Shown in pieces: positions 3,476 to 47,459 of a stretch of 64,000 bases of DNA. The stretch is from assembly GCA_026419785.1 (NCBI GenBank), contig JAODTK010005583.1, positions 186,001 to 250,000 of the forward strand, written 5' to 3'. Each line of letters opens with the position of its first letter. Within the stretch, counting starts at the first letter, position 1. A model generated the notes under the pieces. That model worked only from the letters and a program-made list of their open reading frames with translations, was not told where the DNA came from and made no database searches. Position numbers and translations under genes: made by a program. This DNA is from Sclerodactyla briareus. Taxonomy: Eukaryota; Echinodermata; Holothuroidea; Dendrochirotida; Sclerodactylidae.

Positions 3476-3514
3476 TATATTATAGACAAGAGGCAAAAAC
3501 TTTAAAAAACATGC

Positions 3515-3700
3515 TACGTAAAATGTAGGCGGATCTCGAATGAATGAGATGCGAAATAGCGATGAGCTAGGAAAAAAAAATGTGAGGTAAAAACAGCCGA
3601 TATATTTTGATGCAGAGCTTTCGACAATACTAGTCCATTCGTCCGTGCATGACCACGAAGTGATACTCGAATGTGTGAAGGGGATAAACCAGATCGAGAG
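3515..3700 (-). mobile_element. Penelope-type tail fragment with hammerhead-like motif
   Basis: On the minus strand this fragment is collinear with the plus-strand sequence 9,512-9,656: a shared TTCGAGT segment, the hammerhead-like core, a CTCTGCATC segment, a CTGTTTTTA stretch and a final CATCTCATTCGAGATC segment. It is therefore a second copy of the terminal part of the Penelope-like element, in opposite orientation and without coding sequence. It lies just beyond the 3' end of the minus-strand LINE. Its upstream limit is uncertain. Confidence 0.6.
3609..3651 (-). ncRNA. Hammerhead-like ribozyme motif, copy 2
   Basis: Reading the minus strand, stem I (CATGCA) is followed by CGGACGA, a GGAC/GTC hairpin with loop TAGTATT, GAAA, GC, TC, and the second stem I strand TGCATC. 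Stem I pairs over five positions (ATGCA/TGCAT). The expected core CUGANGA carries a U-to-G change at its second base, and stem II has lost one C, so this copy is probably inactive. The very short stem III (A-U, G-C without a loop) matches the minimal form known from Penelope-like elements. Confidence 0.5.
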
Positions 3701-3950
3701 TCTCAAGGACTCTCTGCTGGCATGGCAAGTTTTTCAATAAACTTCCGTTCGTTCTGTAAATGGGGGCACCACGGAAAAAGGAGGGAACCCGGAGAAAGCA
3801 CCAGAAGCGCGAAGTTCCTACCTACGGAGGCTCAAACTGAAATTAGGTTTATTAGGAGGTCTATCATCACCGAACAAGCATCGAGAGGAGACTGATTAGC
3901 GTTTTTAGCTGTGATTAGAAGTATTAGTAGTAGAGTCCACAAGGCGGTGA

Positions 3951-4142
3951 TCAGCTGGTAATTTTAAGAATAAATTTTTGTTGAGTAATATGGAATCTGT
4001 CATGCATTGACGTAGAATCGCTCGCCTCTAAGATCAATTTAACAGGGGTATACCTAGGCGCCTTGATAGCCGTCCGTAGACCCTGGTTATGTATGCGTTC
4101 AAGTCTAGTATGTATGGGTGGTGAAGGTTTACAAGAGTACAA
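3951..4142 (-). pseudogene. LINE C-terminal segment
   Basis: A 63-codon frame containing LERIHNQGLRTAIKAPRYTP followed by VKLILEA and a HDR motif. This matches the region after the RT palm in LINE proteins, where a conserved pattern of hydrophobic residues plus 'N..LR...GAPR.TP' is typical. It lies about 300 bp beyond the RT catalytic region on the same strand, as expected. The frame ends at a stop near 3,951, which may be close to the original protein end. Confidence 0.75.
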
Positions 4143-4399
4143 CTCCTACTCGAGTATAGGGCGGATGTAGGTGTTATATATCTTTACGCCAGTATTTTGA
4201 CCGATATGGAATTATACATAGTGAAACGCAGGAAATGGCAAATCCTTGACCCAGGCTTTAGCTACCACTTGTCAATGTGGCGGTGCTAAAAGTAAGCGGT
4301 GAGTCAAAATAAATCCAGAAACGAGACAGTATTTACTACGAGGAATGCGTGGTTTAAGAGGTTGATATGAGGCTTAGGAGCGGTGTGAGTTTAGTCGTG

Positions 4400-5200
4400 G
4401 TATGATGAAACCTGATTAAGTTAGATTCCGGGGTTAATCTTAAATCTCCCAAAGAAAGCACCGCTTTGAAATGGTTTGAGATGCGTTTGGGGATTTCTTC
4501 ATTTAGAAGGTACTAGAAGAAGTACAGTAGAGGGCAATAATCATTGCAAAATTGAGTTAAAGAGACTTGTTTGTAGGATCAAGCGGGGATGTCATTGACA
4601 TAGATTAAGATAAAGGAGTGGGAGGATCACAGAGACTTGAGGGTGCCGGCCTTCAAGTTGAAGGATTAGAGAGTTGAATATTATAGTGATGTACAGGGAT
4701 CTGTCATGAGGTGAAATGAACAGAGGTAGGCAAGGAAAAGGATCGGGAAGATCAAAGATCAAGATCTAAAGTTGTATTTAGACCATTGGGGACAGGTTTG
4801 AGCAAAGGCTTTTCAGCGTCTAGGAAGGCCACTTGGTTGAGTGTTTGCGTTTGAATCCAGTTGTATTCCTCAGTTAGATTAATAAGCGGATGAATGGGCT
4901 CATGTTACGACGAACACAATAAGGTTGGGGGAGAGCAGGTTGTTGTTTTCAAGATGAGAAGTAAGACGGGTGGTGATTATCCGTTCGAAAGTTTTCCCGA
5001 CAAAAGGTAAGAGCTATAGGCCTATAATTGGATGGGTCAAGTTCAGACTTATTAGGCTTAGGGATTAAGATGACTTTGGCCACTTTCCAAGGAATAGGAA
5101 AGTACCCAGCGGTAAGCAGGGTATTAAAATAGTCAGCCATCGTATCGAGAGATTGACTGGTAGATTTGTCAGATGGAGGTAGGTAACCCCATCAGGGCCG
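4400..5200 (-). pseudogene. LINE reverse transcriptase fragments
   Basis: The best frame (4,949-5,140) begins with WKVAKVILIPKPNK and PSNYRPIALT, the hallmark of RT blocks 1-2. After a frameshift the next segment reads SGKTFERIITTRL and HLENNNLLSP, the next conserved block. Further on, YVNDIP (about 4,585-4,612) and a catalytic-site region QFCNDY in place of QFADD (about 4,533-4,558) are visible. The aspartate pair appears damaged in this reading, which may be decay or sequence error. At least four frame changes are needed to follow the domain. Confidence 0.8.
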
Positions 5201-5949
5201 GGAGAGGAGGAGTTATTAGTACGTTTGCGACCAGTTTAGGATTTCAACCGCCGATGGGCCAGTAAGAAAATGATTATAAGTGTGGTTAAGGGTGTCAAAG
5301 TCTGGTTTTAATTTAGGCTGTTATAGATATAATTAGCGACAACCCGATTGTGAGTGTCATCGAAATTGGGGTCATTAGGAAGATTTAAAAACATCTGAAC
5401 AAGGTGCCAAAATATTTCAACCTGTTCGATAGGGTCCTTATTACGAGTATTGTCTGGTTAACCAGTTTTTCCAGAGTATTTCGGCTTGACAAGAGTTTAA
5501 TTGAGCATTAACCTTTTCCAGAATTTTTTTGGGTTCGAGTTCATGATTCATATCATTGAAGATTTTATCCCAAGTTCGCGGACGTGGGAGTCTCATCTCC
5601 TTACCAATCTGATAACCAAGTGAGTTTACCTGCCTCTTAAAGAGGAGGATCCCTTGTTTATAATGTACTTTATTCTAAGTTCCGTTTAGACTTTAATGAG
5701 TTAATATGAGAAGTAATTTCCAGGGTTTTCTGTTGTATGGTAATCAGGCAAGAAGCCTCAAAGGAGGACCTAATAGAGATATTAATCTGGGATGCTTAAA
5801 GAGTCAGGAGTTAGAATGGAAGGAGTAAGGGAATTGAGCTTACTCTGGATAGTATCAAACATGGCAGCTGACTCTCAGAAAAAGTATCCCAATTGGTCTT
5901 AAAAGGATCTCTAAATTCATGCTTGTACTCTTTTTTGCGACCCCGGGAG

Positions 5950-6600
5950 AACTAAACAAGGGAGGAATTATGATGATCTCTGACTAAGACTAGAGTCTCG
6001 TGGGAAGATAGAGGAGAATGAGAGAAAGCAATGTCATTGGAGGCAATTACCAAATCGAGAAGTTCCTCCTTTAAAGCGAAGGGTCACGCCTACGTTTTGA
6101 ATTAGTGTAGAACGGGTGAAGCATTATTTCCAGTACGTAGCAGGTGGTTACCAAAGCGATTGGTTTTGTTACAGCCAAAGAGGGTGTGGTGTGAGTCAAA
6201 TCCCCAATAAGATAGTATTGGTTTTGACAGTTAAAAATCAGCATTCACAAAAGTGCAAGGGGGGTTTGTTAGTAGGGTAATGCATTTGATCGGACTATTA
6301 TTATACCTAAGATACATAACGCCAAATTGGCCTGAGGGTCAGGGAGAATAATATTTATGGTAGTCGCAGTAAGCCTTGTTTGACGCCAACTAGGTCTCCC
6401 CCTTTGCCAAAAGTGACATTATGTAAGGTAAGTTAGCATTAACCCAGGAATGTTAAAGGTATATCATAGGGGAGTTTAGTTCATAAGTAAGATCAGGTCA
6501 GGAGTATGAATATCAATATACTTCCGAAGGAGTTCCCCGTTTGTATTTAACAGAATTAATATTGAAGTGAGAGTTAGAAGTAAAGAGAGAGCGGTGGGAT
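5950..6600 (-). pseudogene. LINE endonuclease domain remnant
   Basis: In shifting frames the minus strand shows a start-of-domain motif (PDLILL after 'HT'), a KGGDLVGVKQGLL segment (about 6,380-6,400) matching the GGG-V-V-K motif, and DSHHTLFGCNKTNRFGNHLL preceded by GD (about 6,135-6,205), the catalytic GDFN.HH..WG pattern of AP-type LINE endonucleases. The domain is broken by frameshifts. Its position upstream of the RT on the same strand supports one element. Confidence 0.7.
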
Positions 6601-7059
6601 TAATTGTTCCGAGTGGAGATTCTGTTATCAACAGGACATTGGTGTGACAGGGGAAGCCAATCCAGCGCCAATAATGGGGAGGGAAGCGGCCTCTAGGGTC
6701 AGACCGGGGTTATATGGAGGGAGGGGTACTGAACAGGAGGTCATTTATGGGGGCTCTGTGTGACCCTGTCAGCTCCCATCCTAGTTGAGATCGGGGTGCC
6801 TTAGGAGGGGGGTTGGTCCATATCAGTTGACTGGATCTGGGGGATGACAGTACGAGAGATTGGGTCAGTTGTTCTTTAGATTACGTAAGAAGGATTTGAG
6901 ATGCTTCACCTGCATGAGATATTCAGGTTGTCAGAGCAGAGTGGATGATTGTCTGGCGATATCCCGCTAGCGTTAATTGGTTTTCTGAACAGTTTCCTGT
7001 ATTTCTAAAAACAAGTATTGATCAGATCTGTGGCAAATAATACCAGTTGTTTTGTCTTT

Positions 7060-7325
7060 TTGTAATTGCTAAATCGAGAGAAGACGGCTTGAGACTTTAT
7101 AGGCGCTAGGAACAATGGTGGGTGAGGCTAATTAGTGTTTCTCTGATTGACAGGGAATAATCCTGTGGGGATTAATATGGGGGAGGGAGGCCAATTTGCG
7201 CCCCGCCTCAGTGATTGACAGAAGATTAATCCCCCAACCCAGGATGATACTAATGAAAGCCAATTTGCGCATTGGTGATTGACAATGGGGAAAATAGGGA
7301 GGGGTGCCGAGTGGTACCATCACCT
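7060..7325 (-). repeat. Left inverted terminal repeat of Penelope-like element
   Basis: Its reverse complement aligns with 9,285-9,535: shared segments include CACTCGGCACCCCTCCCTAT, GCGCAAATTGG, a CCCTGTCAATCAG block, AACACTA, TTGTTCCTAG and TAAAGTCT. It is thus an inverted copy of the right repeat and flanks the coding region. Inverted or tandem pseudo-LTRs are a known trait of Penelope-like elements. The hammerhead-like segment that follows the right copy is absent here, so this end is truncated next to the LINE. Confidence 0.8.
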
Positions 7326-7606
7326 CTTCAAAATTCAGGCAAAAAGCACTGAAACCACCAAGAGGCATCCCACACATGGAAGCATACATTTCGGGCAATC
7401 GAAGAAAGATGTCAACGAACTCCACCCCGCCCACTGAATTAAGGGATAACCAGCAAACTGAGAGACCAATCATGGCCTCGTGAAACATCGCAACGATATC
7501 GTCATCAAGCCTGCTGACAAAGGCTCTGCCGTGGTGGCTATGAGCACCGTATTCTACGAATCGGAAGCACACACGTTCTATTGGAAACCCCGGACATTAT
7601 CAGCCA

Positions 7607-8335
7607 TTGACTCCCGACCCACCAAGCAAAAATGCTGCCCAGATTGAAACAAACCTAGGGAAAAATGGTATCAAGGGTCCATTAGCCCAAATCGGCCCCA
7701 ACCTTCTTTCAATCGGAACCCAAGCCAGGAAGTTTACTTTTCCAAAAAAATGCACTCAGTTCGATGGACCCTGGCAGACCCATCATTTTGGAAACGGCAC
7801 TGGCTGCTACAGAGAAAATTTCCAAAATTGTGGACCTCCTGATTCAGCCCCCTCGTCCCGTCCTCCCGTCTCACGTCAAGGACACCACAGACTCATCAAT
7901 AAAATCGGAAAGATCCAAGATCTCCCCCTTGGCACATTGCTGGAAACCGGACGTTTCTTCTCTGTATACCAATATCCCTTTCGAACCAAATTCATGCCCG
8001 ACACCAACCAAAGCCCATCTTGCGGAACTAATGAACCTCATCCTAACTTGCAACATTTTGTGTTGGTGCTAAACATTACCGCAGGCCACGGCACAGCAAT
8101 GGGCACTAAAATGGCTCCAACGTTCGCCAACCTCTTCATGGGAAAACGTGAAGAGAAATCCTCCTTCTCTGGACAGGCCTGGAGGCCAATTGGTGTGGCT
8201 CCGTTATATGATGACAGCTTCATGATATGGACCCCCGGGGAAGAAAAACTACTGTTCATCGAACAAATCAAAGCATTCCACCCATCTATTCAAATTCACT
8301 GCGGAATTTTCAAGCGACAGAGTCCAATTCCTTGA
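7607..8335 (+). pseudogene. Penelope-type reverse transcriptase, longest open frame
   Basis: A 242-codon frame, the longest in the window. GTAMGTKMAPTFANLFMG (8,089-8,142) is nearly the family consensus for RT block 4. YDDSFMIW (8,206-8,229) corresponds to the catalytic YIDDIF.IW with one isoleucine lost. FLDTTVTW follows after a frameshift at about 8,325-8,345. The first ~70 codons are in a frame that departs from the family consensus, so the annotated ATG is not the original start: the protein began upstream of 7,510. The catalytic DD pair is kept, but the protein is broken at its C-terminal side. Confidence 0.85.
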
Positions 8336-8769
8336 CACCACTGTGACGTGGGAAACGGGTCAATCAAAACAGACTTGTTCACAAAAAACCAGCGGAAAGC
8401 ACATTTCCTAATCCCAGAGTGTCACCACCCCACTGCACGATAACATCGGCACAGTCAAGCTCTTCGTCTGAACGCATTTGCTCCTCAGATGCTGATTTCG
8501 AGTCCTGTGCCAACGCACTTTAAAACACATCTCAAAAAGAGGCAGTATTTCCGGGGTTCCATTGGAAGGGGGCCATTGACAAGGCTTTAGAAAGACCCGG
8601 AATTGATGAAACTCTGACGTACACAAACTCGTCAAAGCCAAATTCCAGAGTTACCCTCGTCTGTGAATACCATCCTGCGCTCCCACCATTAGCCACTCTC
8701 ATTCCAAGCATTTGCACATCCTTCAAAGTAAGGAACCCTCTAAATCGTTGTTACCGGAACCCCCGGGTT

Positions 8770-9285
8770 GTGGCCTACAGCAGACATCGGAATCTGCGTG
8801 ACATACGTCAACGCCCAATTTTCGAGAGCAAGCAGCTAAAGCGCAAACAAACACCGGCGGCAGCCGCCCCTGCCCATACCAACGCAAAACGTGCAAACTG
8901 TCGATCGCACAACTTTGTTTCAAAGTTCCAGACATCCCCGCATATCTCCGATTCAACAGGATATTGATGGTTCGCGAGAAACCTGGTCTACCTAATTTAC
9001 TGTAACGTCTGGCGGAGTTTCAGTAAAATCGGGGAAACAAAAAAACACCCTGAGGTAGCGAATGACCCAACACCGGTCAGCCATCAAGACCAAATTGTAG
9101 CAGACGGTTTGCTAGCTTTCACATGGGTCAGTCACTCCATTGAAAACCTGGAAGTGATCCGCTCGACCTGACACAAAGTGGTCCACTAATCCCGCAACAG
9201 CGAAATAAAATACTGGGATTGAAAACCTGAAAACGACTACACCATTTGCGTCTGAACATTTCGAACGACCTGCCATCACAAAGAG
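8770..9285 (+). pseudogene. Penelope-type linker and GIY-YIG endonuclease remnant
   Basis: RNLRDI (about 8,790-8,808) matches the conserved 'RR..NLRD.L' motif between RT and endonuclease. PCPYQRKTC (shifted frame, about 8,868-8,895) matches the cysteine motif. YLIYCNVWRSFSKIGETKK (about 8,982-9,040) corresponds to the 'VYLI.C..C...Y.GET' start of the GIY-YIG nuclease. HSIENLEVI (about 9,133-9,160) and PFGLNISNDLP after a frame change (about 9,242-9,275) match the distal motifs and the usual protein end. Confidence 0.78.
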
Positions 9286-9535
9286 ATAATGGTAACCCAC
9301 TCGGCACCCCTCCCTATTTTGCATATTGGCAATACACCAAGGCGCAAATTGGCTTCATTAGATATAATCCTGTTGAGGATATTTCCTGCAATCCACACTG
9401 GAGGCGCAACTTGGCCTCTCCCGGGAATAATCCCCAAAGGGATTATCCCCTGTCAATCAGCGAAAACACTATAATAGCCCACCCCACCACTTGTTCCTAG
9501 GCCGATTAAAGTCTATCTTCGAGTTATCAATTCTG
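9285..9535 (+). repeat. Right terminal repeat of Penelope-like element
   Basis: This repeat is the inverted partner of 7,060-7,325 and begins about 10 bp after the last recognisable endonuclease motif. It leads directly into the hammerhead-like motif. The pair encloses the coding region in an inverted, not tandem, arrangement. Confidence 0.8.
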
Positions 9536-9542
9536 TGGTGCA

Positions 9543-9582
9543 CTGCATGAAGAAGGACTAGTAGTGTCCGAAAGCTCTGCAT
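9543..9582 (+). ncRNA. Hammerhead-like ribozyme motif, copy 1
   Basis: Parts in order: stem I strand CTGCA (9,543-9,547); TGAAGA (9,548-9,553), the CUGANGA core lacking its first C; stem II GGAC (9,555-9,558) / GTCC (9,566-9,569) with a 7-nt loop; GAAA (9,570-9,573); GC, then TC as the cleavage site; second stem I strand TGCAT (9,578-9,582). Stem III is only A-U plus G-C with no loop, as in the minimal hammerheads of Penelope-like elements, which are thought to act as dimers. One core base is missing, so activity is doubtful unless this is a sequencing error. Confidence 0.55.
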
Positions 9583-9670
9583 CCAAAACATTATCAAGCT
9601 GTTTTTAATCAAATTTTTCTAGCTCCATCGCATTTGCATCTCATTCGAGATCCAGCATTATCACTTTTTA
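9583..9670 (+). repeat. Shared tail after the hammerhead-like motif
   Basis: Matches the minus-strand sequence 3,515-3,608 including CTGTTTTTA, a CTAGCTC-CATCGC segment and CATCTCATTCGAGATC. It marks the outer end of the Penelope terminal repeat and is lost in AT-rich sequence on the right. Confidence 0.6.
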
Positions 9671-9734
9671 TATTTTTTTTTAAGCATTTTTATATAAATC
9701 ATTTATAATGTTTAATCATTATTATTATTTTTAT

Positions 9735-9850
9735 GCATTAGACATATAGATAATATATATATATATCTTCTATATAATATATATATATATCTTATATTAT
9801 ATATATATATATATAATATATATATATATAATATATATTATATATCTACT
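9735..9850. repeat. (TA)n microsatellite
   Basis: Imperfect TA dinucleotide tracts with short interruptions. Confidence 0.9.
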
Positions 9851-9889
9851 AGGGTGTCAAATAATTTAAAGTAAAACTCTTTCTCTCCA

Positions 9890-10760
9890 CAGGGCTAATG
9901 TATTAACACTCCTGAAAACGGTATAACACGTTTAAAATTTGTCTTCTATATCTCATCATTTGGAGGTCGCAACTTTTCACTTTTTCCTTCGTCAGGATGG
10001 TCTGTGAGCAGTCGGAAGGCCATGTCGGTGTTCTTACAGACGGAAGATGAATGCCTCTGGTCCTCATCCTCGTCAGCATTGCACGCTTTTGCAGGGCAAA
10101 CTCCACGTTCTGTGCTTCGTCCTGAAAGTCCTCGTACAGGCTGTGCCCTTCCAGACAAATGGTCCATTACAGAAAGCCCTGATGACCTTCCTGGCTCCGC
10201 CTTGCCTTTAAGCACGTCGAAAAACACGAAGAAAGAGACCTGTGGTGAAAGGGCATCCAGGTGGATATGGGCATTGTCATCAATGTGTTGCCCGGCGTGG
10301 GGTATGTTCAGTTTATCTCATCCGCCACCAGACGGCCTTGATTTGTCTGGAAACCCCCCTGGTCATCCAACGGAAAAGGACGGACCAAATTTCCGGAGTA
10401 ATAGAGAGGAGAGCATTGCTCGCGGTTGCGGCGACTTCGATCAACTCAGTTAGCGGCGTCGTTGATGGGGCATAGGATGAGAGTGGAGCTTCGTGCCAAA
10501 AAGGGGAGTATGGCGTGAACAGTACCATGGCAGTCACATTCCGCCTTCGAGTCAGTGTCGTGAAACTGTTTTCGAAACAGACATTTTAAGAACAGTGGGC
10601 CCTTTGACATCCACCTCGGCGGCACAGGGGGCACGAAACGGTGGTGGCTCGCTTTACCCCCATCCGAGGAACACAGCTGCGAGTTGCAGGAACTCAAAAG
10701 TAGTCCGCGTGGACACTCGTTGGTCAGCCAGGGACAGATGCCAGATTATTGAGTAATGGT
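9890..10760. other. Unidentified GC-rich block with long open frames on both strands
   Basis: Clearly richer in GC than its surroundings. The plus strand has a 149-codon frame (10,004-10,453) and the minus strand a 93-codon frame (9,946-10,227) with an acidic DEDED stretch, plus 74-83-codon frames further right. Neither strand gives a family I recognise. The block could be a decayed coding fragment of a mobile element or a processed gene copy. Which strand was coding cannot be decided from the sequence. Confidence 0.35.
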
Positions 10761-12756: not shown

Positions 12757-13063
12757 TTCCTTGATATTTGGTAACAAAGACTAAGACTAGGATTCCAGGA
12801 AAACAGATGAACAAGTTGCATATGTCTGGCAAGGGGATATAGAATTCTCCATAGATTGGCCCCATGTTACATTTCTCAGAATGCCGACATTAATATTCCC
12901 TCGTGGAAGCAGCTGGGAGTTCTCCGTTCTCATCTGCGTGAAAACTAATTCCCGAGGAATGAGCGATCGACTATACTGTGATTGATTACGAGATTATTAT
13001 AAGTGCTGCCTCTTTGATGGAGGTACTTAATCCCTCATGTAATGAAACAAAAGAATACATGCC
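12757..13063 (+). repeat. Dispersed repeat, copy 2 (~305 bp)
   Basis: Direct-orientation partner of 2,405-2,738, about 10.3 kb away. The two copies differ by many single-base indels and substitutions. The right limits agree (after GAATACATGC), suggesting a true element end. Confidence 0.75.
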
Positions 13064-30510: not shown

Positions 30511-33504
30511 CATTTTGTGGTGATACGTCGTGATATACGCCATGTGCTTAGTTAGCCTATTCGCTTTTGCCGTAATTACGCGATTTTTCCATGCGTGCGG
30601 ACCGGCATACGCACCCATGGAATCCTAGCCGTATTCTGCATGCCGAGCCTGAACCGAATTTAGAGATTTGAGAGCCATTGTGAGTATTTTTCGGAATTTG
30701 GAGATTGTTTTGGAGGAATGACTTTGAGATCTTTTGGCCTTTCAGCTGAACCATTCACGACATGCCTGCACTGGGAGCCCGCGAGCGCAGTTCGTGTGGT
30801 TCCAGACATGACACCAGCTGCAGAGCTCATTGCAAGTCACCCTCAACCGCTTTAATATCTGATAAACTGCAGGTACTCCACATCTTCATCCCATCATCGC
30901 TGACTAATCGAGTCGAAGCATTCTAGATCGTTCAGACCCGCATATGAAAAACGCAGTTATAGCCATACATGCTCACAATCAGATGCCTGCCTAACACCTT
31001 GAATGACATCATTGAGACGTGATGAGCGTACCGTTGCTGTGCGAGGTGGGTTCATTGAGCGCGTTGCGCTCGGCCAGAAGTCAGAACCCTTATCCCAGGG
31101 AGGATTGTAATTCCATGCACCCGAGTCCGAGAAGTTAACCTCCCCCTAGCACTGAGAGCATTTAATATCTTCGAGGTTCAATACAAACCCACATCAATGA
31201 TGGCAACCAGTTTGTCTTCCCCTTAGATCTTCGCGGTAGGACCACTGGAGTGACCTATATCGCAAAGAGTATACTAGTTTTGATCTGCGTTGAGAACGAC
31301 AGTCTAGATATGGATTGAGGAAATTCTTGTACCCTCATTGTTACTTCATCGAGTGCATTGAGAACCGGAACAAGGGATCTGTGCCCTCTCAGCGCTCTTC
31401 GCCCTGACTCGCACTGGCCATCACTGATCGTAATCAGCCTGGGTTTATAATCACCCTCAATCAGCCCAGTGGTTAAAAGCATGTTGCGTAACAATATGGA
31501 CCACACCTCAGGCCCAGGTAGAAATAGGTGTAGGATCAGCTAGTGTTCGATATAGCATCTGTCATAAAATAGCATTTGTGGCTTTTTGGTGACGTTGAGG
31601 AATTAAACTGCAGCCGGCTTGAAAGTTGACCTGTGGCTCGGACAAAGCGAAATTATGAGTACGCTACATGACAAAGGTTGCTTCCGTCAAAGCGACAAAG
31701 TTGATTGGTTTACAAACGTTTCCCCTGCGTGTGTCCATTGTTGCTTGAGTTTAAAGCGGCATTATCGTCTGGATCGACCTTGCCTCACACTGGGCTGAGT
31801 TTTCTTTGTCGCATTTTTAGAGATATTAGATATAGGCCTAACTAATCGTAACACATAACTGCTATCGTACTGATGATGGTGACTTACTGCATGCCCCATG
31901 TTTTGTGTAGAGTTATCACTACTGATCCTTAAATTTCCTATATTCTTCCAGCGCATCGAAAGCCTGCACCCTGCTGACCTCCAGAATAACACATACATAC
32001 ACAGGAAGGTTAGAAGTTTCAGCCAGTGGTCACACACAATTATCGCGAAGATCGAAATCAATATGATCACGTAACACTTGCAATTGCTATCTGCATTTCT
32101 TACTCTTTGGTTAAGTGGATTTCACGCGCTTCTCGATATACAATAGTTCTGGGTTATCATCGATTTAAGTTTCTTCGGGAACGGAAGAGGAATCTCTTTA
32201 ATATTCATAGCTGCGACAAAGTCAGTCCAGGGATCTATAGTGAACGGAAAACATCGAAAGCGAGGTCCATACTTCATTCCGCTACGATTTCTACGAGAAT
32301 GGTGGAGGAGACTGCTCCGAAATATCAATTGAAGTTTAGCACGTGATGCATCAGAGGTCGAAATATCTCGATAACATAGTAAAGAGCATACAACGGCAGG
32401 TAAATCGACAATTTTCTTTCTGCTAGGTCCTGTGTTGTAGTATGTGTTTGGGTTAAGGCATTAAATAAAGGTCGATTGCGAAATTAATCTGTTTGAAATT
32501 GGGTGAAATTCTCCAAACTGGGGATTGTTTTTTTTTCATAAAACTCCTCATTAATTTTTCAATAATAAGACAGTTTTAATGTTTTTCGCTGAGATTTGAA
32601 TTGCCAATATTTCTAGTTTGTAAGAAAGTAAATATTCACTATTGCCACCGATCCTTCCTCGAAATTAATGTAAGAAATTGTTTCTCGAAAAATGTAATGA
32701 ATTTTTTGGACACTCAGTTACAAGCCCATTTTTAATAGGGCTCATATTTTAATATTTATTTCGGGTCAAAAATTCCAGTGCTATCATGTGGCTAAACAGA
32801 TGATCACATTATTGCACAAGAATGGAGACTCCGTGATTTCCTTATGTAGGCCGAAGTGTCCTTAAAGTCCAATAGCTGAGTTAGTTCATGTGCTGGCGTA
32901 CCTCGGAGAATGTCTAATGATTTAGTGGAGGCATATCGATACTGGTTGCAATCGACCGATCAGGTGCATCACCATATTATCCTATAGGGAGAGAAAGACA
33001 TTGTGATAAGAGAATCGATATGGAATGGCGTACTTTTGGCGCAGACAGTCGAATGAGATAGGACCATCAAAACTATGAGACGACTTGCCGAATAAACGAG
33101 CCCCTTAAGGTCGCGGTTTTCCAAGAATTTAGATATTGGAAGTAGGTTCGTTCTTCATTTTGTTTTTTTTTTTCCCTTCCTGGACATCTGTAGAGGCGGT
33201 TCGTTCATTGGAAATGGGTGGGTGGACTAGACGTTGATGTGGGTGGTGTGGGTCGTTGGACGATATGTTTGCTGTGGTCTGTTTTTTGCCAAGTTGTGGA
33301 CTGGGTTGGCTTGGCTTTTGTTCAACGTCGAAATGATTCCGAGAGGTGTTCTGTCGCATCGCCGATCTCGAAGGTTACTGACCGAGGGCAGGGGCGGGCG
33401 GGTTCTGGGGTGGAAAGCAAGGCTGGATGAGCGCGGGTGCGGACCGATCAATAAGTGTTGGAAAAAAGATGGACGATACGATGGTTATCGTATTTGAGGG
33501 CACC

Positions 33505-33845
33505 ACCACTGGTAATTTTTTTTATGGTAGGTATACTGCCGAGCAGAGAATCGATCCTATTCAAGGCCCAGCAAGGGTGCCGACCTTGAGACTGCACCTT
33601 ATTGTCCGCCGCGAAATCCTTACACCAGTACAGGAATAAGGCAATGCCTCTTTGGCGGTACGCCTGGTGGGGGGTGTCCACCTGCAGACAGCAACATGCC
33701 TACCCCTCTTGTCCCTCTCCAATCCTTGGGCTGAACCCCCAGCGAGAAGGCCAGATGTCCACTTTAACGGTCTTTGGGTATGGCCCCGAAAGGGCATCGA
33801 ACCCCGGTGTCCCGGGTGGATGGCCGACTCTCTAACCAATGATTC
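33505..33845 (-). mobile_element. tRNA-derived SINE, full length
   Basis: On the minus strand the element starts with a tRNA-like head: an A-box-like TGGTTAGAGAGTCGG and a B box GGTTCGATGCC, followed by CATACC and a body with GCCTTCTCGCTG, GGGGTAGGCA and ACCCTTGCTGGGCCTTGAAT, ending in an A-run (33,515-33,524). The plus-strand copy at 44,335-44,635 is homologous over head, body and A-rich end. Transcription would be by RNA polymerase III from the internal boxes; mobility would depend on LINE proteins in trans. Confidence 0.8.
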
Positions 33846-33956
33846 CAAGCCACTTAGGTTGGTGTCAGAGATGGGGGTCTTTATCCTACATAATGTTCTC
33901 TCCACACACGAACCGCTTCTGCGACTGCCTTATCGCCCCTCCCCACTTCAGGCCAG

Positions 33957-35462
33957 CAGAGGTGGGGACTCGATTCAAGCGACTTGGACTCAGAGTCCCG
34001 ATTTTTCGTGACTTGCTCTTGACTTGCGATTAACGGACTTGACATTGTTGACTTGACTTGGCTGCAACCGTCTGGCCTTGTTATTGACTTGTACTGCATA
34101 ACTGACTTGTCGCGATCGCAAGTCAGCAAGCCCAAAAATCGTTACATTTTTGTTTTTCACCGTGACAGAAATCCCAGAAGTTTGTCAAAACCGTCCGGCC
34201 CAGCGACCGCGGCCGACACCATATTTGGATATACCGTGTATACTACGTCGTCCCCCGTCAGCGCGGCGCGCGTATCGTACAACCCTATATTTCCTTGCCC
34301 TGATGCCCACGCACCGTATCGTATGTGGCAGAGAAAGTCGGCATACTGCAATTTATCTCGACTAGTCAATGTCTCGGATACAAGTACACATAGAGAATCG
34401 ACGGCTAGAAACGGTATCTAAATGTGACCTGCAAGCTTCTCATTAATACCATGAAGTAGTGCAGCAGCGGGCCTTGATGAATTACCTTGCCCCGACGTAT
34501 ATGGGTGCAAATCGAAATTATATCTGGCATAAATTTACTATAAGGTATGTACTATGTCAGGGTTTCAAATATTAAAACACCAGAATTTCAATTCCACTTG
34601 AACGAATTGCACTGCATGTTACGAGTTTCATTATTCAAGCTCAATGTTTCGAGTTTCTTCAAGTTGAATGTCGTTAAGAAACATGTTATTATTCACTGAA
34701 ATCACTGTTAGTAATAACATTATTTTTCATTTTCAGAAAGCTCTAGAGTGCAACAGTACCATTGACCTCTGCTCAGAACCATACTGGACTGCTTTCAATT
34801 GCAATTGGGCCTCAATTGAGCCACAACATGTTTGACACTGGGCCACCAACTAAGCGAAGTAAATCATAGATGGTGGCTATTTAAGAAGGCAGCTTCCTTC
34901 AAGTGCACATGTTTGCATCTTCAACGAGAGCCGGCAGTACCAAAACAATCCAAAAAAGAAAAACATCCAATCTAGTTCTTGACCCTCAAGTGGAGACTGT
35001 TTTTTGTGAATATTTATGCAGCTTATGGGTTCAATACATCTTTTGTATTTAACAATCATGACTTTCGTTTTCATATCTACACATTCTGCTGTTATACGCA
35101 ACACTCAAATCGCTTGAGTTTTATCATTAATCTAGGCATTGCCACTTGTCAATCCCCCGTTGTGTCACTTCCTGATCTTTATCGTCACACCATACCGTAG
35201 TGTACAGTGTACGCTATAACCATGCCCCTCCTGATACTTCACTGACATTGTAACTTGGACTTGCATCAGATACTTGCGACTTGACTTGGACTTGCATTTT
35301 TCCAATTGACTTGTGAATTGACTTGGACTTGCATTTTTCCAATTGACTTGTGATGTGACTTGGACTTGCATTTTTCCAATTGACTTGTGATTGACTTTGA
35401 CTTGCACCAGCTGACTTGAGACTTGACTTGGACTTGAAGAAAGTGACTTGTCACCACCGCTG
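33957..35462 (+). mobile_element. Non-autonomous hAT-like element (1.5 kb)
   Basis: Ends CAGAGGTGG (left) and CCACCGCTG (right) form short terminal inverted repeats with one mismatch, typical of hAT elements. The flanks CAGGCCAG and CAGCGAGT could be a damaged 8-bp target duplication. The subterminal parts consist of GACTTG-rich repeats (33,985-34,130 and 35,240-35,455), and no transposase is visible inside. The element is absent from the matching position of copy B (about 39,500-39,555), so it inserted after the duplication or was lost from B. Confidence 0.75.
35277..35400. repeat. 37-bp minisatellite inside the hAT-like element
   Basis: Three tandem units of about 37 bp, each with GACTTGGACTTGCATTTTTC followed by CAATTGACTTGTGA. 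The units are very similar, so the expansion is recent relative to the element. A looser GACTTG-rich zone continues to the right end. Confidence 0.85.
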
Positions 35463-36149
35463 CAGCGAGTGATTGCGCCCCTTGTCTTGTTGGTTCAAAA
35501 TTTCAAGGACCCGAGCAGACAGAAGGAAGCGATTGACGCAGCGACCTAGCCAGACTCAGTGGTTCTTGATGATTTTGAAGCGAAGAAGTTTGTGATGTGA
35601 AGCATCCGGACGGGATGCAGTGAGTGGAAAAACTATGAAGCAATTAAGTAATGTTTAACCTTTAATGGTCATTTTATTATTGTTCCATTTCCTGGACCAG
35701 TTCGATTGTCGGAAGTTAGTAGTCGGTCTGCTGATCCTGACATAGGATGTGGATTCCATGGTTGGGTATGCGTTGATCGGGATACATGTGAAAGCCACTC
35801 ACGAAAACGAACGTTCGTTCAGAAGGGAAACACACTATAAGTTTATGCAGAGAAGAACAGCGGGCAGCCCATGCCATACGGTCGTTGAGGACTTTTAGAA
35901 TGAAAAAAAAAAAAAAATCCATTAAGCATCATTGGTGGTGATACGCAACCTAATATACGCGTTGGTAAAGTGCTTATTCAGCTATTTCATCTTTGCAAAT
36001 CTAATCCCATTCAGATCACGTGAATTCGCGTTTTTCACATGCGTAACCGGACCGGCATACGCAACAATGGAATCCCAGCCGTATTCTGCATGACTTGCGA
36101 TGCCTGACGATTACGAATTGAGAGCGTGTGAGGGCTCCCCAGTCCGCAG

Positions 36150-36545
36150 CGAAGCTGTTGTATCGAGGGGCGGGAGAATAGTAGAGCGGTAATCAGGGTT
36201 CGCTTTGATGCAACAGGTCTCCGGGTTCGAATTTCAGCGTCAAGCCAAGGGCCGTTTTCCAGAAGTGGCTGTACTTGCAGTCGACTGGCGTGTCCTGGTC
36301 TTAGGTTCTGGTCTGCGTTGATCAGTGTGTGGTAATTTCGGGGGGTTGCGGGGGGCTGTTCGGGGGCACTTGCAATAGGCTCGCGAGTCGGCTGGGCGCA
36401 GTCGCGTGCACATCTTCCGCTCCCCAGGTTCTGAGAAAGTGGTCATGGTCTGGAGTTCACTGATCGTCCGTCGGATGGGACGTAAAATTGCGGTCCGGGG
36501 GGCAGGGATTGGGCACTCCTGCCTCGATATCATCTGAGCAAAGTA
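36150..36545 (+). mobile_element. tRNA-derived SINE, second family
   Basis: The head has an A-box-like TAGAGCGGTAATCAGG and a B box GGGTTCGAATT. The body contains GGATGGGACGTAAAATTGCG, a segment resembling the 'GGGACGTTAAA' region found in several animal SINE families. It sits in a 790-bp insertion unique to copy B. The end is uncertain. Confidence 0.65.
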
Positions 36546-36587
36546 GAGAAGAGAAGGCGAGTTGTCGCGGTGCTCACCACGATCAAA

Positions 36588-36655
36588 ATTAGGGTTAGGG
36601 TTACACGATGGTCAAATTGGCTTCCTGAACCCGTAGCAATCAAATCAAATCAAAT
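36588..36655. repeat. Short TTAGGG-like and (AAATC)n tracts
   Basis: Two TTAGGG-like units (36,590-36,601) and four to five AATCA units (36,638-36,657). Too short to call telomeric. Confidence 0.6.
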
Positions 36656-39289
36656 CGAGTGCTGTGCAAAAACTAACAAGCTTTGGTTGGTAACTCTATT
36701 ACAACTCGTTGATGAATGACAGTACATCTCTGGATGTAGATTGATGGCCGATCTGATCCGCTCAAACTTTACACGATCCGATCACAATCCGGTCCGGCCA
36801 GCACAAGAGTGTGCAGTATTCGGTTCTTGAAGTCGCTCCACCTCCCACCATGGAATATGGAGGTTTTGTTAGAGGGTTCTGGGCTTTTCCTCGCCATGAG
36901 GCTGAATTCCTGGTAATTAATTATAAAATTACTTTATGAATTCAGCATGAACTTCGGAGATGCTTTTAGACCGTTAGCTGAACCATGTCACGGACATTGC
37001 CTGGTAGCAAGCGAGCGAAGTTCCGTGCAGTGGTTTCCCCAAGGGACTCCTCTTCAGAGTGACACAGCTGACAGAGCGCTCATCAGCCAATGTCTCCTTA
37101 ACAGCTTGATAACCTGATATCATGCAGTTTATCAACACCCTCTCACAAACTCCGTCATCGCTGACTATACTTGAAATAGGCGAGCATTTCTAGATCGTTC
37201 AGCCCGCATATGAGAAGAGCATGTAATTCGAGACATTCTCACAATAGGCTGCATGCTAAACAGGTGAAGGACAGCATGGAGACGTTAAGAGCGTACCTGT
37301 TTGCTCATGTGTTGCTGTTTGCTACATGTGGTGTTCATCGAGCGCAGATTGCGCTCGGCAAGAAGTCAGAACTGATCTCACAGGAGACGGATGGTATTCC
37401 ATGCCCCCTGAGTCGCGAAGTAACTCCTTAGCACGAGAGGCATCGTATCTTCGAGGTTAAATGGCACCATAATCATGATGGCAAACCAGGTGTCTTTCCC
37501 CTAATCTCTAGTATGACTACTGGATTAATGACTATGGAATTAATAGCAAAGAGTAGTGATAGAACAAAAAAAACCTTAAGTCCGTCAGCGAAAGGTTGAT
37601 TGGTACAAAACGTTAGCCTTGAAGCGGTCATTGTTGAGTGAGAAAAATTAAGGGGCATTGTCGCTTTGTGTAGCAAACAACGGGGGCTGAGGTTTAATGT
37701 TCAGAGATATTAGATATAAACCTAAGGTTCCATAACACATACGTGATTTTTGTATATGATGATGATGATGGTGTCACTGCCTCATTACTGCCATGATTGG
37801 GTAAACTTATCATCTACTCTTATCTTACTAGGCCACAATATTCTTCAGCGCATCCGGACAAAGCATGCATCCTGACTGGACTCAGAACGGACCACAACAG
37901 CATACACAGGAAAGTTGTAAGAGGTTCAGCCAGTGGTCACACAACAATTTCGCAGAAGATCGAAATTCAAATGATGATCCGTACATTTGCAATTGCATTA
38001 GCCATTATTTGTTGAGTGGTTTTTGTCTCGCTTCGCGATTGGAAAAAATAGTTTCGGGTAATCAGTTATATTTAATTTCTTAGAAGGACGGAAGAGGATC
38101 TCAACAATTAATATGCTGCGCCAAAGATCAGTCCAGGGAGAGTTTTAAGGAAAGGAAGGAAAGAAATACGAATTTTTTTAAGAAATACGAAAGCGAGGTC
38201 ACAGTCTCGCGACTAATTTCCGAATAGAAATGATTGGCATTTATAATTTTGTAACAGTCACATTTGCGATTATCTGTTCGGAAATGGGGTGAGATTTTCC
38301 AAAACTATTATTATTATTTTTTCAACCATCTCATTTTTTCCAAATAATAGGGACACGTTTTTTTCTTTATTTTTGTTTTTTCGCGGAGTGGAATTGCCAG
38401 ATGATTTCTAGTTTGTGAAGAAAGTGAATAGTCCCCGATGCCCGATAGTCCTTGAAATTAGGTAAGAATTGTTTCGGAAAAAATACTTAATGACGTTTTT
38501 GGACAGTTAGTAACAAACCCCGTTTTGACTAGGGCTCATAATTTCTATTATTTTTCGGGTCAAAATGTCCAGTGCTATCATGTTGGCGTAAAAACAGATG
38601 ATTCAAATAATTGCACAAGATGGAGAACTGCTCGTGTAAGCCACAAGTGTACAAGTCAATAGGAGAGTGATTCCGGTGATATCGCTGCGTACCCTCGATG
38701 GATTTCTAATTGATTTAGTGGAGGCACAGTCGATACTGGTTAAATCGCGTGACCGAGCAGGTGTCATCAGCCATGAATATCCGATAGCCGGAGGGGAAAA
38801 TACGGTATGTGATAAAAGCAAACCAATATATTGCTTACTTTTGAGCCGACAGTCATGAGATAGACAATCAAACCAAGAGCGACTGCCAAATAACGACCCC
38901 TAAGTAGCGGTTTTCCAAGATTAGATAGTTGAACGATGTGTTTATTCTACATGAATGTTTTTCCCGGAATCGCACTTTCCGTTCCCGAGGACATTGGTAG
39001 TGAACGTTGAGGTGCTTTCGTAGACTAATCGTCGGATTATGAAAATGATGCTAACAATCGTGTTGACGTAAGTTGTCTGGTAGTTCATCCTAGAGTCAAG
39101 AAACTCGTAATTTAGTTTGGGTACAGTTCCCTGAAATCACTCTGATTGCCTGTCGACTACTAATCGTAACACATTGTATTGACCTCCGGAAAGTCAAGAA
39201 AATTCAATGTTTTTTTTCTTTTCTTTTGAAGGATAAGGTATGACCTGGTTCAGGATAACCGTTTCCAATAAGTGTAAAGATACTAAGTT

Positions 39290-39435
39290 TTATCTTATTT
39301 GAGGGCACAAAATGCAAACGTATTCCACTTTTTAAATCTTGGTATGACCCGACCGGGAATCGAACCCCGGTCTCTCATCTCCCGGTTGGCAGCCGACGCT
39401 TTATTACCAATTGTGCAAACCACTCGGTTGTGTCA
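39290..39435 (-). mobile_element. tRNA-derived SINE, head only
   Basis: Minus-strand head with GGTTCGATTCCCGGTCGGGT and CATACCAAGATTTAAAAA, at the position of the full SINE in copy A. The body and tail are missing, so it was deleted after duplication or sequence was lost in assembly. Confidence 0.7.
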
Positions 39436-44334: not shown

Positions 44335-44635
44335 GAGAAACAGTGGTTGGCACAATTGGTTGAGCGGCGGCCTTCCACCCTGGAGACCCGGGTCCGATTC
44401 CTGGTCGGGTCATACCAAGACTTAAAAATGGAAACCTGTTGCCTTCTCGCTGAGCGCTTAGCCAAGGATTGGAGCATGGGACAGGACGAGGGGTAGGCAA
44501 GTTGCCGCCTGCGTGTGGCTACCCCTGTACCCACAGTAAGGGACCTATAAGGTGCGTATCCAGGTCTGCCACCCTTGCTGGGCCTTGAATAGGATCATCA
44601 ATGAGCGGCATGTATACCATAGAAAAAAAGCCGTG
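44335..44635 (+). mobile_element. tRNA-derived SINE, full length, plus strand
   Basis: The head has GGCACAATTGGTTGAGCG as A-box region and GGTCCGATTCC as B box, followed by GGTCGGGTCATACCAAGAC. The body has GCCTTCTCGCTGAGCG, GGGGTAGGCAAGTTG and ACCCTTGCTGGGCCTTGAAT, with an A-run end (44,624-44,630). Homologous to the copies at 33,505-33,845 and 39,290-39,435. Confidence 0.85.
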
Positions 44636-44884: not shown

Positions 44885-45650
44885 CATTTAGAGAGATCTA
44901 CAATTATTTGAAGATATTTACTTCAACATAAATGAAATGATATCTCCAATCAATTGCAGATATCAGCAATCAATTGAACGATATCTTTAATTAATCAGAG
45001 ACATCTTCAAATATTTACTGATATCCTCAATTAATTGAAGATATAACTAAAACGTGAAGATATCTTTAAAAAGGAGAGATATTCAAAATTCATGGAGGAT
45101 ATCTCCAAATATGTGAAGATATCCCAAATAAGAGATTTAGTGATATCTTCAAATGATTGTAGATTATCACAATGATTTGAGGATTCTGCAAATGTTTGAA
45201 GATATCAGCAAATAAAAGTTGATCGCAGCAATGGTAATGATATCCCTAAATCATTTGAAGATATCCACAATCTATTTGTTGATATCTACAATGAATTGTG
45301 GATAGCTCATTAATGATATGACTCGCAACTTAATGATGATATCTACAATTCTATTATAAATATCTACAATTCATTTGTCGATATCTTCATAATCAATATA
45401 GATATAAATTATTGAATAGTTGATATATTCAAATAAAGGATTGAAGATTTTTCAATTCATTTGCAGATAGCTTCAATTTATTTGCGATACTTATTTCATT
45501 GCAGATATCTCCACTGAATGCATGATGATATCGGCAAATACTGAATAAAAGCTAAAACGGCGCGTTCTGATGCACTCTACGGGTCTATTGTAGAATCGAA
45601 TTGGAGATATCTTCAACTAATTGGGATATCTCAATGCTGAATTAAAACTA
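44885..45650. repeat. Palindromic GATATC array, block 1
   Basis: Dense imperfect repeats of about 20-25 bp built on GATATC with flanks CTTCAAATAATTGAAG or TACAATT-AATTGTAG, so that most units are near-palindromes and neighbours are mutually inverted. Ends with two boxes of the form TGAAT-AAA-CTAAAACGGYGCG (45,540-45,560 and 45,637-45,660). Confidence 0.9.
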
Positions 45651-45659
45651 AAACGGTGC

Positions 45660-46250
45660 GTTGTGCTGTTCGTACCGTTCTATGTAGCCATGCTGCATGT
45701 TTAATGCCACGCTAAGTTTGTCAGGATAAATAAAAGGATTCCGATACCCCCTTTCAATTTCCGTTTCCACTGTTGTTTTACAATTTCCGATGGCGATTTA
45801 GAGGCTTCTGTATACTGCACAAGCCTAGCAGCCAGCGTGAAAAATAGGCAAAAACATTATGGGGCCGGCCCGGATACGTGTACGGTACGGTACGGTACAG
45901 TAGCGCGCGGCAAGTACCGTTCGTACGTATGTGTTAACATGATAGCTCCATGGCATGAGCTCGGGCCATGGGCGTTATTATTATATTAACGCGGGCCAGG
46001 CGTACCGTATCGTAATTATTTTTCTCCATGGGGTTGTGGGGCATGAACGAATCCAAGGTGACTAATCCTGGTCAGCGATAATATAAAATCACTTTTTAGA
46101 CCAATTTACGCTTAATTGCCGCAGGATAATACCGGGAAAGTAAATTCTGGTAAATAACAATGAAGAGGCTTCCCAAAAATTAACACATTCTTATTTACCG
46201 GAAGTCCCTAACCCATGAAGGCTTCCCCAATACCCAGGCATGGTGGTCGC
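45660..46250. other. Spacer between GATATC blocks
   Basis: Non-repetitive apart from a short (TACGG)n at 45,885-45,899. Contains alternating AT- and GC-rich segments and no gene. Confidence 0.6.
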
Positions 46251-46254
46251 AAGC

Positions 46255-47395
46255 CAGTATTTGAAGATAGCTTCAAATAATTGTAGATATCTCCACATGC
46301 TATATAAAAAGTAAAAGCTGACAGTATTTTTAGATATCCACAATTATTTGCAGATATCTACATTTGACTTGCTAATATCTCCAATTATTTGAAGATATCC
46401 TCAAATAAATTGTAGATATCTATAAATATTTTGGAGATATCACAATCTTTGGAGATATCTTCAAAGATTGCAGATATCCGCAAATAATTTGAAGATATAT
46501 CTCAAATTTATTTGAAAGAATTCTCCAAATGCTGAAGAAAAACTAAAACGGCTGCGAATTTTTGATTCAAACAATTCCAATTGATTGTAGAATCTACAAA
46601 CGATTTGAGGATATCTCAAATTAAGGAGTAGATATCAAAAAATGTAATAATTGATATCATAATTACAACATATCACGGTATTATTGTAATAGCCCATGGT
46701 CGAATTGCTGATATCAACAAAGGAATTGTAGATATATGTAATAGACTTCTAGATATCCACAATTTAATTGTAGATATCAACAAAGGTAAAGCACGGTGAT
46801 ATCTACAATTCAAATGTAGATTCAGCAAAAAGCCCAAAACATCTGCGGATATCCTCACTTCCTCTGTGGATATCTCAATATTTGAAGATAATCAATAATG
46901 ATTTACAGATTCTCAAATAATTGGAGATATCTCCAAATAATACGGAATCTTCAATTGTTCGAAGATATCAACAAATAAATAGGATATCTTCAATATTTGA
47001 AGATGATATCTTCAAATAATTGTGGAGATCTACAAGACCGAATGAACAATTAAAACGGCTTGCCTACGCCCCGGGGTCCGTTACAGCCAAGAACATTAGA
47101 GATAATCCACGAGTGAATTGTAGATATCAACAAATAAAAGCAAGTATTGATATCTACAATTCAAATGTAGATATGGCAGAAATGAATTGAGGATATCCTC
47201 AATTCCTATGTGGATATCTCCAAATATTGAAGATATCAATAAGTGATTTACAGATATCTTCAAATAATTGTAGGATATCTCCAAATAATTACTGATATCT
47301 TCATTATTCGAAGATATCAAAAAATAAATAAGGATATCTTCAAGAATTTGAAGTGATATCTTCAAATAATTGTGGATATCTCCAAACCGATCAGA
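46255..47395. repeat. Palindromic GATATC array, block 2, with higher-order duplication
   Basis: The same palindromic unit as block 1. Within it, 46,762-47,095 and 47,117-47,455 are a tandem duplication of about 355 bp that also includes the flanking box TTAAAACGGCTTGCC and a GCCC-GGGGTCCGT segment. Boxes of the AAAACGGC type occur at about 46,535, 47,050 and 47,400. Confidence 0.9.
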
Positions 47396-47459
47396 AAATT
47401 AAAAAGGCTTGCCACACGCCCGGGGTCCGTATACAAGCCAAGACATTAGAGGACCTGGA

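Follow-up and report, generated by a model that had tools for sequence, protein, structure and literature searches.

The window analysed here, that is, the whole stretch of 64,000 nucleotides, contains at positions 9544-9581 of the forward strand a degenerate minimal hammerhead (copy A). We assign a probability of about 0.85 to the reading that copy A is a decayed minimal type I hammerhead carried by the Penelope-like (PLE) family of this genome in a terminal repeat (pLTR) of ~420 bp. Minimal type I hammerheads were reportedly found in Penelope-like pLTRs by Cervera and de la Pena in 2014 and by Lunse, Weinberg and Breaker in 2017. The passages of PMC7761336 and PMC6155905 that deal with PLE pLTRs describe minimal hammerheads without helix III. 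The PLE hammerhead kind is already known, and what is new is the additional A seen in this family, copy B, which lies inverted in a pLTR interrupted by a LINE-like insert, and a count of the 5′ ends of inserted copies.

The hammerhead and its sister copies

Copy A reads TGCA, TGAAGA, A, GGAC, TAGTAGT, GTCC, GAAA, GC, TC and TGCA. Its parts are a stem I of 4 bp (TGCA/TGCA), a stem II of 4 bp (GGAC/GTCC), the GAAA, a lone GC and a UC cleavage position; the core is without C3 of CUGANGA and has one additional A ahead of stem II. The core elements had been reported in this order by an earlier note on this DNA, and the letters are indeed present. With a strict descriptor (4 Watson-Crick pairs in stem I, a core within 1 edit, 4 pairs in stem II, then GAAA, NN, and UH) a single match, copy A, was obtained in the 64-kb window, against none in 200 shuffled sequences of the same dinucleotide content, and we confirmed the motif as real, of type I, minimal and stem-III-less. 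The pairing of stem I, previously given as CTGCA/TGCAT, exists, but it is formed by 4 pairs (TGCA/TGCA) and not 5, the outer C being opposite a T. The loopless stem III of two pairs that had been proposed is impossible within one molecule, since GAAA-GC-UC has a single GC; stem III (AGCU with AGCU) therefore requires a second copy. The additional A, located between A9 and stem II, was absent from the earlier description and is a departure from the usual hammerhead core. The bare core pattern, allowed up to 1 mismatch, gave 7 matches in the window against 6.1 expected, i.e., the chance level. The exact bare core pattern was also searched in viral contigs, where 0 of at least 120 matches listed had both stems, and a search of viral contigs at the protein level gave no relative.

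Sister copies were gathered with a 181-base query against the window's own genome (319 Mb, 3171 contigs), from which the best 40 of 396 first-look candidates, the window included, were taken. The alignment comprised 48 rows spanning the motif, both window copies among them; further copies from the fetched stretches were added, and BLAST pieces that did not span the motif were dropped. The majority sequence of the 48 copies is TGCA, CTGACGA, A, GGAC, TAGTATT, GTCC, GAAA, GC, TC and TGCA, which is a complete core, and the majority letters around the cleavage position are GAAAGCUC, with the palindromic helix III. The core bases were found in 41/48 (C3), 41/48 (U4), 44/48 (G5), 44/48 (A6), 45/48 (G8), 45/48 (A9), and 48/48 (C17) of the aligned copies. 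The strict complete form of 38 nt was present in 11 of the 48, a looser core pattern in 23, and the additional A between A9 and stem II in 46. A model built from the sister copies (R1) gave 63.4 bits to copy A (9538-9587), a score that is evidence of homology and not of function, considering how the model was built. A consensus with CUGANGA restored had been named as a possible support, and other genomic copies do restore it: besides the presence of C3 in most of the alignment, 42 of the 78 pieces placed by BLAST have an exact CTGACGA, and 7 of the 78 do not cover the core. Taking into account the frequency of C3, its absence is a defect of copy A, whether by deletion or by an error of assembly. 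Genome-wide, the intact-core pattern CTGANGAN(11-19)GAAAGCTC had 140 matches versus 11 for the reversed pattern; among the 100 matches listed, 44 had a stem II of 4 standard pairs beside the core and 56 did not under this rigid rule, and some of the 100 were outside this family by eye.

In the chrysanthemum chlorotic mottle viroid (CChMVd) an extra A lies at the same position as here, between A9 and stem II. The part of PMC3705267 that treats the CChMVd plus hammerhead also describes it with an extra A; that hammerhead is a viroid ribozyme, and no relation to the retrotransposon is implied. With the minimal PLE type I hammerheads our motif has in common a helix III consisting of the palindromic GC only, stems I and II, the CUGANGA, GAAA, and UH elements, and the location in tandem pLTRs. 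It is unlike them as a class (named families aside) in the additional A after A9 and in the broken cores of the window.

Copy B, a second degenerate hammerhead, is located in an inverted terminal repeat at 3605-3654 of the minus strand (54.7 bits with the R1 model). Its damage consists of a change of U4 to G and the loss of one C of stem II, and the complete CUGANGA...GAAA...UH core is absent from both window copies (C3 missing in A, U4 to G in B). As each has lost a conserved core base, they were filed as degenerate descendants and not as working members. Copy A is predicted to be inactive because the anole PLE hammerhead cannot do without C3: both C3 and G8 were needed there for a cleavage that took place only with the element's protein added (PMC11167929). 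Copy B is predicted to be inactive too, less firmly than copy A.

Among 65 pieces whose letter at that place is T or G, 7 show the change of U4 to G, namely, copy B, L133:4430, L136:4495, L145:2205, L154, L184, and L188. When it was tried as a lineage mark, no second diagnostic site was found to be shared among the 7 pieces; it may be a recurrent change or belong to a ribozyme-dead lineage. By eye, a second left part of the pLTR (GGAGAAGAGGGCACATCC...GTCCTGA-like) was seen joined to the same hammerhead segment at L136:2120-2420 (-), L138:4420-4700, L140:8380-8640, L170, and L194, suggesting two element lineages with a common hammerhead segment.

The probable Penelope-like host element

The earlier note had placed the motif in the terminal repeat of a Penelope-like element, and this attribution was supported, as the motif lies in a ~420-bp repeat of a tandem and inverted element with RT-like and GIY-YIG-like pieces. 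The pLTR with copy A, then an AT-rich tract, occupies 9300-9681 (+) and aligned at 82% to the pLTR of the intact sister copy L129. Two segments of the minus strand, at 7064-7311 (83% to the same pLTR) and at 3481-3671 (84%, bearing copy B), are by alignment with the L129 pLTR the two parts of one inverted pLTR, running from 7311 to 7064 and from 3671 to 3481. Between them lies a LINE-like element of ~3.4 kb (3672-7063, -), inserted ~20 nt upstream of the hammerhead of copy B, whose piece at 4949-5191 (-) is putatively RT-like by its motifs. The two pLTR parts overlap by ~15 nt (L129 oriented 4475-4489), which fits a target-site duplication from the LINE-like insertion.

Between the inverted pLTR and the plus-strand pLTR are a frame-broken part of the element's ORF (7462-8408, +), presumably RT-like by its motifs, and the C-terminal part of the ORF (8524-9168, +), with a GIY-YIG-like piece at 8968-9168. 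No Pfam match was obtained for four window pieces, the RT-like and GIY-YIG-like ones among them, and no RT family was matched in Pfam or PDB by the window piece or the sister pieces, so that the RT label is a putative one, given by motif. For the RT-like piece at 7544-8332 the genome holds 149 related matches, and internal stops were counted in 143 of those listed. A sister GIY piece of 38 aa (L137:3983-4096) gave Pfam PF01541 with E=0.0012 and 19.5 bits, under the cut-off of 22.6; PF01541 was not matched by a second sister piece (L207:701-814) or by the window piece at 8968-9168. A literature text search with one ORF peptide found no paper.

The hammerhead recurs in the pLTRs of sister copies and in one array. 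In L133 and L134 two hammerheads of the same orientation bracket RT-like, C-terminal-like, and GIY-like pieces, in the order pLTR-ORF-pLTR, and the head-to-tail array of L207 has three hammerheads 3152 and 3157 bases apart (~3.15 kb), with RT-like, C-terminal-like, and GIY-like pieces between them. Tandem and inverted pLTRs and AT-rich targets, as for Penelope-like elements, are present. A passage of PMC3846280 describes inverted pLTRs as a Penelope arrangement. By comparison with the PAc hammerhead of the Anolis Poseidon PLE (PMC11167929), stems I and II with a loop II, a tandem PLE and AT-rich insertion sites are common to both. The PAc ribozyme cuts 26 bp past the start codon of an ORF that begins at stem II (PMC11167929), whereas in L133 there are ~1.2 kb between the hammerhead and the start of the recognised RT-like piece.

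Other repeats were seen along the window and at the sister loci. A direct repeat (2474-2520 and 12817-12863, 74% over 47 nt) brackets the Penelope-like region, and its similarity seems longer by eye. At L147:3917-5249 (-) three pLTR copies lie nearly end to end, with starts 438 and 475 bp apart, together with inverted partial copies. A long degenerate minisatellite of GATATC-containing units of ~20-21 nt extends over 44892-47451, with a higher-order period of 350 bp at 46751-47451, and a 37-nt tandem array of ACTTG-rich units is found at 35253-35450. Within 30598-38583 there are several sequence pairs 5.4-5.9 kb apart, suggesting segmental duplication. An inverted pair of 46 nt (39329-39374 and 44383-44428, 91% complementary) resembles the T-arm end of a tRNA and perhaps represents tRNA-derived SINEs; ARAGORN found no tRNA.

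Ribozyme evidence and starts of inserted copies

A search of Rfam, as the earlier note had proposed, matched no hammerhead in the whole window at gathering scores, in the stretches 8900-9900, 9520-9610, and 3585-3680 at E up to 10, or in six of the 39 sister loci. Among these six, L150, L159, and L167 carry the strict complete form, and since they were unmatched too the Rfam check is not decisive here. Covariation in stems I and II, the other support that had been looked for, was no better than in shuffles: 89.8% of the cells are paired and 1 cell is changed on both sides (L149), which is not above the shuffles. This sole compensatory copy (GGCC/GGCC) was predicted alone to form another hairpin, of -15.5 kcal/mol. 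Stem II was less variable than its loop only at p=0.057, and common descent by itself would lead one to expect conservation within a repeat family. Covariation not being shown, the argument for a ribozyme comes from the complete core of the majority, the match to published PLE hammerheads (PMC7761336, PMC6155905, PMC11167929), and the position in the pLTR.

Fold prediction included both stems in the monomer optimum of L129 and L148, and a weak outer GG/CC helix was predicted in these intact sister copies. The two-strand structure with stems I and III formed between copies is nested and has -17.7 kcal/mol, versus -18.4 kcal/mol for two separate monomers; such inter-copy pairing is possible, though the energy model does not favour it. 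Two unconstrained strands of L129 were predicted to form a different and more stable duplex (-27.1). For the intact copies we infer that a read-through RNA of head-to-tail units (~3.15 kb in the array seen) would carry one hammerhead per unit, that two hammerheads could pair via two palindromes, AGCU for stem III and TGCA for stem I, and that the paired hammerheads could cut after GAAAGCUC, giving RNA of unit length. That minimal PLE hammerheads possibly cleave as dimers is stated in a passage of PMC7761336.

The 5′ ends of inserted copies were then compared with the predicted cut. Queries at or after the cut gave three lists of copies from 74 distinct places, all but one of which, at a contig start, had a visible 5′ side (73). 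Start positions were taken from automatic alignment to the pLTR, and at least 30 copies had their 5′ end between positions 300 and 400. Not counted here are L193 and L205, which form a head-to-head fold-back pair with automatic starts at 398 and 342, L138, which has the different left part and starts near 320, and four partial copies in L145, L147, and L149 that were retrieved along with other stretches and not by these queries. Among the 30 short copies, 4 start at 300-328 (two of them, L170 and L194, with the different left part), 12 at 329-339, 4 at 340-382, 3 at 383-388, around the cut that follows position 384, and 7 at 389-400. The 12 at 329-339 start within ~7 bases of the A in TCACTT; of the 3 at the cut, L172 is exact and L137:3605 and L168 are within 2 nt. 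Since (TA)n is the site of many of the junctions, part of both large groups may be due to microhomology (TAT, TATAT). This count favours uncut RNA as the usual insertion template, with a minor share of cut RNA possible. In an in vitro study of a PLE the cut was unnecessary for insertion and no RNA reads ended at it (PMC11167929).

A peak of 5′ ends at the cut had also been considered. The value P=0.02 came from 5 hand-picked events before the last stretches; these later stretches gave three more ends in the same interval (L212, L218, L221), none of them at the cut, and with 3 of 30 the peak is not claimed. L193 and L205 (contig C3014) are ~70 bp apart and head to head, with a palindromic junction beside stem I of the hammerhead.

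Rival readings and the use of cut RNA

Tandem hammerhead units are also common to the animal type I retrozymes, the amphibian ones of which use dimers, according to the parts of PMC7229834 on these repeats. It could be asked whether the repeats here represent non-autonomous retrozymes whose hammerheads are of the classical type I and which lie next to a PLE by chance. Motif-bearing short copies that begin beside (TA)n just upstream of the motif (L148, L169, L175, L187, L192) and the pLTR copies lying nearly end to end in L147 (438 and 475 bp) would agree with this. We consider it highly improbable, taking into account that the loop of helix III is absent, that the Rfam hammerhead was not matched by the six sister copies and that the motif is located in the pLTRs of ORF-bearing units; the retrozymes of PMC7229834 are described there as small non-coding repeats, whereas this family is tied to an element bearing an ORF. 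It is likewise unlikely, to a lesser degree, that the motif is merely hammerhead-like, with a ribozyme that never cuts and a conserved stretch that serves as promoter or 5′ leader. Against it, the published PLE hammerhead is matched in all core elements, in both stems, in the palindromic stem III, and at the UC site; the lack of chance matches in the 200 shuffles and the 11 strict complete copies speak against it too. In its favour are the missing covariation signal, a TATAAA that in L129 starts 34 nt before the A of TCACTT, itself 14 nt before stem I, and the 12 of 30 short copies that begin near that A when just 3 begin at the cleavage site.

The remaining question concerns copy A itself and the quality of the assembly. 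In the 48 rows and 88 columns we counted 288 substitutions, 54 deletion events, and 54 insertion events, with an indel:substitution ratio of 0.375 and a ti:tv of 117:171 among the aligned copies. Such an indel share and transversion excess are odd for neutral decay and suggest assembly noise as the source of part of the damage, with a possible contribution of alignment error. Copy A could then be active, its missing C being a base-calling or consensus error as the earlier note had considered, and the column of this C is gapped in 5 of the 48 copies, copy A being one of them. This is improbable, since copy A differs from the majority by 9 substitutions and 4 indel events in 88 columns and the ORF beside it is broken at many places, as in an old copy.

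Returning to the preferred reading, in which the motif descends from a PLE hammerhead, we tentatively propose a position for it in the element's transcript. The RNA might start at the TATAAA/TCACTT, 14 nt upstream of stem I, the hammerhead would then be at about +15 to +49, and the short copies would record the 5′ ends of RNA used for insertion, mostly uncut and in a minority cut; we hold this to be possible but rather doubtful. In the relevant passage of PMC3846280, a rotifer Penelope pLTR is reported to contain a TATA box and an initiator-like TCACT. A passage of PMC7761336 speaks of the activity and role of PLE hammerheads in living cells as a mystery. If the proposal were true, old genomic copies would measure the in vivo use of ribozyme-cut RNA, which is called open in the field, and this genome, in which the copies number well over a hundred, allows the 5′ ends at the predicted start to be counted against those at the cut.
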